Translations under genes and position numbers: made by a program
The notes under the pieces: model-generated
The model's input: the letters and a program-made list of their open reading frames with translations, nothing else
What the model was told of the DNA's origin: nothing
Database searches by the model: none
In this document: positions 37,829 to 40,028 of the stretch, in pieces
How positions within the stretch are numbered: position 1 is the stretch's first letter
How the letters are laid out: the number at the start of each line of letters is the position of its first letter
From: Selenomonadales bacterium
Lineage (GTDB): Bacteria; Bacillota; Negativicutes; Sporomusales; UBA7701
Direction: 5' to 3'
DNA: 64,000 nt
Assembly (NCBI GenBank): GCA_029976065.1
Contig: JARKNV010000071.1
Location: forward strand, 62,001-126,000

Positions 37829-38881
37829 TTACACACCTCCCTGTTTGTCTTGCAGATGGCGGACGATTTCAGCGGCTATTCCCGGCAGCGGCACCACCTT
37901 GTCAATCGCCCCGATCTCGATGGCCGCCTTCGGCATACCGAATACCACGGTTGTCGATTGGTCCTCGGCGATGGTAAAACCCCTGGCGTTCTTTACCGCC
38001 TTCATCCCGCGGGAGCCGTCGTGGCCCATGCCCGTCAGGATGACGCCCACCGCCCGCGGCCCGTAGATTCGCGCCACTGACTCCAGCATCGGTTCGACCG
38101 ATGGCCGGTGGCCGCCGACCGGCGGCTCCTGATTCAGTCTAACTACCGTTTTGTAGCCCTCGCGTTCAAGGGTCATATGGAAATCTCCGGGAGCGATCAC
38201 CGTCAGGCCGGGCGTCAGCACGTCGCCGTGCTGGGCCTCCTTAACCGTCAGCGCCGACAGGCTGTTGAGGCGGTCGGCGAGCGACTTGGTGAATCCCGCC
38301 GGCATATGCTGGACGATCACCACCGGGCAGGGCAGGTTCCCCGGCAGGCGGGTGATGACCTCCTGCAAAGCCCGCGGGCCGCCTGTAGAGGTGCCGATGG
38401 CAACAATGCGCTCATCGGTGGAAGGCGCAAAAGCCGGTGGCTTGGGCGGCGGCGGCGGCGGCGCCGGCGGGCGGACCAGCTGCCTGACATTTGCGCGGGT
38501 GGCCGCACGGCACTTGGCGAGGATCTCGGTACGAATCTGATCTATGCTCGAAATCGGGCCGGCCGTCTTGGCGACGAAATCCACCGCCCCTTTTTCCAGC
38601 GCTTTGAGAGTAGCATCAGCTCCCTCGCGGGTAAGACTGCTCACCATAACGACGGGAACGGGCGACTCCTTCATAATCGTCTCCAGGGCGCTGATGCCGT
38701 CGAGCACGGGCATCTCCACGTCCATCGTCACTAAGTCCGGTTTGATCCGTTTGACTTTGTCAATGGCCTCCTTGCCGTTGCGGGCCGTATCGACGACGGT
38801 GAAGTCGGCATCAGCGGTGAAAAGGTCGGATAACACCTTGCGCATGAATGCTGAATCGTCAACCACCAAAACCTTGATCAC
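37829..38881 (-). CDS. cheB: Chemotaxis methylesterase/deamidase CheB
   Basis: Response regulator that removes methyl groups from receptors. 350 residues: receiver domain (VLVVDDSAFMRK, TMDVEMPVLDG), linker, then the catalytic domain with GTSTGGPRALQ (Ser), QHMPAGFT (His) and TGMGHDGSRG (Asp). GTG start at 38881 with AGGTGG upstream. No cheR is in the window, so the methyltransferase must lie elsewhere. Confidence 0.96.
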   Translation of the reverse strand: MIKVLVVDDSAFMRKVLSDLFTADADFTVVDTARNGKEAIDKVKRIKPDLVTMDVEMPVLDGISALETIMKESPVPVVMVSSLTREGADATLKALEKGAVDFVAKTAGPISSIDQIRTEILAKCRAATRANVRQLVRPPAPPPPPPKPPAFAPSTDERIVAIGTSTGGPRALQEVITRLPGNLPCPVVIVQHMPAGFTKSLADRLNSLSALTVKEAQHGDVLTPGLTVIAPGDFHMTLEREGYKTVVRLNQEPPVGGHRPSVEPMLESVARIYGPRAVGVILTGMGHDGSRGMKAVKNARGFTIAEDQSTTVVFGMPKAAIEIGAIDKVVPLPGIAAEIVRHLQDKQGGV

Positions 38882-38928
38882 GGCTATCCCACCTCTCGTC
38901 AAATTTCCAGGCCGCCATGACGGCGTTC

Positions 38929-39120
38929 CTATTGTCTCCTAAAGATATATTTGATAATTTTGTCCCGCTCCCTTTCGGAAATATCGACAATTTTCATCGC
39001 GGCGGTATAAAAATATCGTGTTCGACATCACGTTCGCCCCTGAAACCTCACCTGTGGCCTTAAAAATCCCCCTATCCTCCAGGTCGATAGGCACCTCTTC
39101 ACCGGCATGCTCGGCAGCCT
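38929..39120 (-). pseudogene. Remnant of a YcgR/PilZ flagellar brake gene
   Basis: Between flhG and cheB there is no intact ORF, but two adjoining frames encode PIDLEDRGIFKATGEV and then, after a shift near the T-run around 39010, DISERERDKIIKYIFRRQ followed by a stop at 38929. The latter resembles the conserved C-terminus of YcgR-type PilZ proteins, and the former their beta-barrel strand. Only about 60 codons remain of a gene that is usually about 220. GGGAGGGGAGG with an ATG at 39108 remains at the front but in a frame that hits TGA. Intact YcgR binds c-di-GMP and slows flagella. Identification rests on two short segments. Confidence 0.5.
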
Positions 39121-39140
39121 CCCCTCCCTGGGCTGGCAGG

Positions 39141-40028
39141 CTAACGCATCATATCAAGGAACCGGGAGAAGAAACCTTTGATCCCCGTAGGCTGATTGAC
39201 CTCCTTGCCGTACAGCAGACGCTGCGCGATATGATCGATGCAGCGGGCGGATATCGTATCGGGATGGGCCACCATGACCGGAACCTGCCCCTTGACGGCC
39301 TTCAGCACATTCGGGTCCTCGTAAATGAAGCCGAGATTGGTGACACCGATGCCGAGGAAACGCTGGGACACCTTGCCGAGCTTGTCGACGGCCGTCTGGC
39401 CCTCGTCCATCTCCAGCACCCGGTTGACCACCAGCCGCAACGGGGCGCGGCCGTGGTGAGCGGCGTAGGCCTTCATGACCGCATACGCATCAGCGATCGC
39501 CGTTGGCTCCGGCGTGGTGATGATTATAACCTCGTCTGCAGCCATCACAAAACTCAGCACATTGCGGTGGAGGCCGGCGCCGGTATCGATAAGAATTATG
39601 TTGGCCCACTTGTCGAACAGGACGACCTGATTCACGATCCGCTGGAGCTGGCCCTCGGTGAGGTTGGCCAACTGATATATGCCCGAACCGCCGGACATGA
39701 ATTTGATGCCCCGCGGGCCGTCCATCACGATATCGGACAAACGGTAGCCGTCGTCCAGGAGATTGAGAAGATTGTAGCGGGGTGAAGAGCCCAATACGAA
39801 CTCCACGTTCGCCAGCCCCAGGTCGGCGTCGATCACCAGCACCTTCTGGCCCAGATTGGCCAGGGCCAGGGCCAGATTCACGGTGAGGTTGGTCTTCCCC
39901 ACCCCGCCCTTGCCGCTGGTGACGGTGATGACGCGCGCCCGCGATTCCGGCTGCTTTAAGACCGGGCTTTTGGCCGTGGCCTGGTAGCCCCGCGCGAGCT
40001 CCCGTAGTTTTTCAGCCTGATCGCGCAT
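39141..40028 (-). CDS. flhG: MinD/ParA-type ATPase FlhG (YlxH)
   Basis: Controls flagellar number and placement together with FlhF. 295 residues: deviant Walker A VTSGKGGVGKTNLTVNLALA, ADLGLANVEFVLG, and the switch region IDTGAGLHRNVLSF. The N-terminal QAEKLRELARGYQ is the segment that activates FlhF GTPase in Bacillus. It starts one base after flhF ends. Confidence 0.95.
   Translation of the reverse strand: MRDQAEKLRELARGYQATAKSPVLKQPESRARVITVTSGKGGVGKTNLTVNLALALANLGQKVLVIDADLGLANVEFVLGSSPRYNLLNLLDDGYRLSDIVMDGPRGIKFMSGGSGIYQLANLTEGQLQRIVNQVVLFDKWANIILIDTGAGLHRNVLSFVMAADEVIIITTPEPTAIADAYAVMKAYAAHHGRAPLRLVVNRVLEMDEGQTAVDKLGKVSQRFLGIGVTNLGFIYEDPNVLKAVKGQVPVMVAHPDTISARCIDHIAQRLLYGKEVNQPTGIKGFFSRFLDMMR

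Follow-up and report, generated by a model that had tools for sequence, protein, structure and literature searches.

What occupies the place between flhG and cheB in this flagellar and chemotaxis operon, and has the c-di-GMP brake on the flagellar motor gone with it? The window, i.e. the whole stretch of 64,000 nucleotides analyzed here, carries on its minus strand flhB, flhA, flhF, flhG, cheB, cheA and further che genes; the gene names were mostly assigned by eye, and flhG and cheB were checked by Pfam. Members of the YcgR/YpfA family, composed of a PilZNR and a PilZ domain, are c-di-GMP effectors that act on the flagellar motor. An earlier note on this DNA described a decayed PilZ/YcgR gene between flhG and cheB, and took it as a sign that the flagellar brake had recently been lost from the operon. 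The window belongs to a 3.42-Mb MAG-like assembly (G000; 82 contigs, 87.9% complete, 6% contamination), and the lesions described for it therefore rest on one assembly.

The flhG–cheB interval holds the 3' third of a dead ycgR gene

Counted to the GTG start of cheB at 38881, the gap between flhG and cheB spans 38882-39140, which makes it 259 bases rather than the 258 given earlier; the program that listed open reading frames had started cheB at an in-frame TTG at 38902 instead. The features of the locus are as follows.

39141..40028, minus strand: flhG (MinD-like ATPase, 295 aa; the upstream gene in the operon)
39098..39140, minus strand: the 43 bases after the flhG stop, where the earlier note placed a Shine-Dalgarno and ATG
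38902..39097, minus strand: ycgR relic, about 65 C-terminal codons in three frames (tblastn and frameshift-aware alignment)
39042..39043 (about), minus strand: frameshift 1, directly after the GEV strand (frameshift-aware alignment)
39013..39014 (about), minus strand: frameshift 2, within the T-run (frameshift-aware alignment)
38929..38931, minus strand: premature in-frame TAG in the ycgR relic, with homology going on beyond it
37829..38881, minus strand: cheB, with a GTG start following the conserved AGGTGGGAT

With the intact YcgR of a relative as query, tblastn detects the relic at 48.6% identity over query residues 179-215 (E 1.1e-5), and a frameshift-aware alignment of 39097-38902 to the intact gene of a congener, G002, contains 38/65 identical residues. 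The alignment score of 172 compares with 33.1±5.4 for shuffled sequences, of which 0/60 scored as high, and with 34 for the reverse complement, which rules out chance similarity and bears out the presence of a decayed ycgR. The aligned stretch corresponds to residues 157-221 of the 222 in the G002 frame, that is, to the 3' third of a YcgR-type gene. It retains the tail helix and the C-terminal portion of PilZ; the initial two thirds are gone, PilZNR with them, in line with the earlier statement that the bulk of the gene is missing.

As judged by the alignment to the G002 gene, the relic is broken by two frameshifts and one in-frame stop, and no open reading frame runs through it. Fragments in different frames had been described before, and rightly so, except that there are three frames and not two; a frameshift had likewise been placed near the T-run, where the second one lies. 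The stop that had been read as the end of the gene is a lesion, since nine more codons align to the G002 gene beyond the TAG at 38929-38931. Nor did the supposed 5' signals hold up: compared with the G002 leader and start, the 43 bases at 39098-39140 are matched in score by 218/500 shuffles, they fit the interior of the intact gene no better than 76/500 shuffles, and their ATG opens a frame different from the PilZ frame.

The PilZNR domain (the N-terminal domain of YcgR) is not found in the relic, the alignment beginning at G002 residue 157, and the c-di-GMP motifs RxxxR and [DN]xSxxG are absent from it, because the kept stretch starts after both. The segment 38902-39097 is the dead 3' third of a ycgR gene (PilZNR+PilZ) of the fla/che operon in a genus placed in the Negativicutes (Sporomusa-like), and without PilZNR and the c-di-GMP motifs it cannot work. 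By itself such a pseudogene is ordinary and routine.

An intact ycgR occupies this place in most relatives

We searched 41 genomes, 35 of which carry flhG at the threshold used. An intact ycgR lies between flhG and cheB in 31/35, a count made up of 26 of the 30 retrieved loci and of five genomes in which the coordinates of the flhG and YcgR matches are adjacent. The four genomes without an intact operon copy (G000, G001, G003 and G004) all belong to one genus, and the gene is intact in the fifth genus member, G002, and in the sister genus, G005. The order flhG-ycgR-cheB also occurs in 23/48 named loci of wider origin, both clostridial and Negativicutes; the Bacilli loci among these 48 have no ycgR between flhG and cheB. 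This test covers L034-L081 of 80 named loci, the rest being judged, from their weak or partial matches, to be other ParA/MinD-like proteins.

Two side observations concern these loci. In the named Bacillota MAG SKS3.bin89 (L046), the YcgR-like frame between flhG and cheB is just 131 aa long, perhaps another truncation. The contig of the window also carries another gene of the MinD/FlhG type, with 42% identity to flhG (G000:C49:2930-3763), and genes similar to it are found in G001, G003, G004 and G012.

The operon copy was probably lost twice

The earlier note had pointed to sister genomes as the place to look for an intact ycgR in this gap. Among the five closest relatives, G002 and G005 do have one, and G001, G003 and G004 have a short spacer of 169-171 bases; each of these spacers, however, contains a relic of the same gene. 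The relics score 63 in G004, 41 in G003 and 47 in G001, compared with about 29 for shuffles (0/60 each). An intact operon ycgR masked by faulty assembly of the MAG or by sequencing errors is scarcely credible: the assembly is fragmented, with 6% contamination, and one of the frameshifts falls in a T-run, but the gene lacks around two thirds of its length in addition to having two frameshifts and a stop, and relics are present in three other assemblies, one of which consists of 3 contigs.

Three frameshifts fall at identical positions in all three relics and are absent from G000, and the upstream breakpoint of the relics differs from that of G000. The relic of the trio is more decayed than that of G000 and probably older. 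In G004 and G003 (L005 and L006) the relic happens to contain an ATG followed by some 28 open codons, noted by eye; as the frame is broken in G001, it is probably due to chance.

In a tree of 29 proteins (9097 columns), drawn mainly from flagellar-operon genes, the trio forms a clade with support of 100/100, G000 pairs with G002 (88/92), and a clade of G000 plus the trio is disfavoured at a borderline AU p of 0.044. The codon positions point the same way. Differences between the G000 relic and the intact G002 gene amount to 17/40 at third positions versus 13/80 (Fisher p 0.003), and the intact G005 gene shows the same third-position concentration relative to G002 (p 1e-5); no such bias relative to G002 was found in the trio relics (p 0.21, 0.54 and 0.68). 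The bias that survives in G000 and is absent from the trio implies that the G000 gene died late and on its own branch, and for this genome the word recent in the earlier note was well chosen.

That ycgR was lost just once, in an ancestor shared by G000, G001, G003 and G004, and that its remains then decayed differently, is an unlikely alternative. Identity of flhG does rank these four together (83-87%, versus 78% for G002), and the AU value is borderline; on the other hand, G000 and the trio share no lesion, their breakpoints are unlike, the pairing of G000 with G002 is supported at 88/92, and a coding signature is still detectable in G000 only. Because of the lesions, the codon-position bias and the 29-protein tree (AU p 0.044), we favor two separate losses of the operon ycgR, probably with that of G000 as the younger.

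The remaining spacer might instead have been kept because it now serves cheB in a new role, as a promoter, a leader or the source of a short peptide. In a gapped MAFFT alignment, on which these values depend, the relic regions are 0.80, 0.71 and 0.70 identical (G003-G004, G004-G001 and G003-G001, respectively), compared with 0.74, 0.68 and 0.61 at four-fold sites, but this excess is small. Furthermore, no sigma-70-like promoter or terminator-like site was detected within 38700-39400, and the frames are broken differently in G000 and in the trio, all of which makes a new role very improbable.

A full-length YcgR is retained at a distant locus

All five genus genomes encode a second, full-length YcgR at a distant locus, outside the flagellar loci. 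The copy of the window genome is located as follows.

G000:C68:79112-79768 (= L143:6113-6769): distal ycgR of G000, 218 aa

The five distal copies are 59-89% identical to one another. Judging from their codon positions, with a third-position bias in all 10 pairs, the distal YcgR is under purifying selection. The G000 protein matches PF12945 with 54.2 bits (cut-off 23) and PF07238 with 53.6 bits (cut-off 22.5), and the motifs RxxxR and DxSxxG are intact in 5/5 copies. Its sole match of solved structure is YpfA (5vx6, E 1.3e-11), which we take to be MotI. In a tree of 41 proteins, built without the short PilZ-only proteins L144, L145, L147, L148, L150, L152, L154 and L155, the distal copies group with the second copies of G016, G024, G027 and G036, and this clade is separate from the operon copies (100/100). 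The distal gene is consequently an older paralog, and a relocated operon gene is ruled out.

At least one YcgR-type protein is kept in each of the 35 genomes that carry flhG. Matches to GGDEF number 21 in G000 and 23-34 in its congeners; c-di-GMP signalling is alive in the genus. G016, G024, G027 and G036 carry a second copy of the distal clade yet have not lost the operon copy, and the same is true of G002; possession of a second copy thus does not force the loss of the first.

With the paralog kept in all five genus members, loss of the brake as proposed in the earlier note is not supported. We regard it as improbable that the c-di-GMP brake itself is gone and that the distal YcgR does something unrelated to the motor. 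Such a view would fit the death of the operon copy and the position of the paralog, outside the flagellar loci and in another clade, but PilZNR, a domain specific to YcgR, and the two c-di-GMP motifs are all present in the paralog, the one solved relative found for it is YpfA, and a YcgR-type protein is present in 35/35 flhG genomes. The distal paralog could nevertheless serve another c-di-GMP output.

Other PilZ proteins were seen in these genomes. One of them, present in all five genus members and in G005 (L144, L147, L150, L152, L154 and L155), has a single PilZ domain and, after it, a conserved tail rich in Cys (about 8 or more, zinc-finger-like); in the one copy run, Pfam sees PilZ alone. 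L145:3595-4029 (G000) and L148:5751-6230 (G002) encode short PilZ-only proteins of similar size, with no match in G001, G003 or G004.

A candidate SigH promoter precedes the distal gene

Upstream of the distal ycgR, at -68 to -74, the sequence AGGA-N18-GAAT is found in 5/5 genus genomes. The spacer is 18 nt in all five, within the 17-18 nt of SigH promoters. The box occurs 20 times in 615,428 strand-bases, which corresponds to about 0.01 per 300-base upstream region, and among 28 control genes from the same five genomes (the 29 tree frames minus 44421_44885_+, which is antisense to another frame) it occurs in none of the genomes for 27 genes and in one genome for the remaining gene. Invariant columns make up 8/8 of the box core, 9/18 of the spacer and 124/300 of the upstream region overall. 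A tighter form of the box has 2 matches in the G000 genome, the second of which lies in an unrelated region and is uninformative.

SigH is encoded in G000, the genome searched for it (TIGR02859, 377.5 bits, cut-off 294.8). The genes spo0A and spoIIAA are classic SigH targets, and those of the genus carry the box in 7/10 cases in strict form and in the other three with one base off (these three by eye), at -72 to -77 relative to where the family match begins. For Sporomusa sphaeroides, SigH promoters with mapped transcription starts are given as AGGA and GAAT 17-18 nt apart (PMC12456013). Outside the genus, 0/5 second copies have the box, and any link to SigH is accordingly at the level of the genus only. 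The single SigD-type pattern tried gave no match upstream of the distal copies. Taken together, the distal ycgR looks SigH-controlled, through a candidate promoter box.

Proposed replacement of the operon copy

Based on these observations, we propose, with a probability of roughly 0.7, that the operon ycgR decayed after a SigH-controlled paralog had made it dispensable, and that the brake is kept by means of this paralog. The sequence of events may have been that (i) the second YcgR copy, from an older clade, made the operon ycgR dispensable; (ii) the operon copy decayed, probably twice; (iii) c-di-GMP came to brake the motor through the distal copy; and (iv) YcgR would now be made under SigH, and no longer with the flagellar operon. 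The flagellar brake has, on this evidence, probably been rewired rather than lost. If synthesis of the distal YcgR follows SigH, braking would belong to the entry into stationary phase and sporulation. The fuller version, in which the brake has moved from the flagellar to the sporulation-transition regulon and the SigH-driven paralog has replaced an operon gene that died at least twice independently, is put forward more tentatively, at somewhat less than even odds.

The proposal predicts that c-di-GMP halts swimming in this genus mainly as cells enter sporulation. With both copies in one genome, an intermediate relic in another and old relics in the others, the five congeneric genomes form a small natural experiment on the wiring of the brake, and a missing operon ycgR should not be read as absence of the brake. 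A literature search brought up no report of such an operon-to-paralog replacement of ycgR, although one may exist.

Comparison with known systems

The closest arrangement is that of Bacilli such as Lysinibacillus and Ureibacillus, in which ypfA is located elsewhere. The end state between flhG and cheB is the same, an operon without ycgR, but unlike in the Bacilli the state of the genus is young, with relics that are still readable and one congener that has both copies.

Within the YcgR/YpfA family (MotI, DgrA), the relic can be aligned with the tail helix and the PilZ strands at the C-terminus, and differs from the family in having neither PilZNR nor the c-di-GMP motifs. The distal copy of G000 has both family domains (PF12945 and PF07238), both motifs and the match to YpfA (5vx6), and departs from the operon copies in its separate clade and its SigH-type box. 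YcgR with c-di-GMP is described as acting on rotor and stator, its expression in E. coli as tied to the flagellar regulon, and B. subtilis MotI as a clutch on MotA (PMC12713396). In the literature searched, outside the B. subtilis regulon, no ycgR under SigH came up. To the SigH (Spo0H) transition-phase regulon, the distal ycgR is linked by the AGGA-N18-GAAT box that it shares with spo0A and spoIIAA of the genus.
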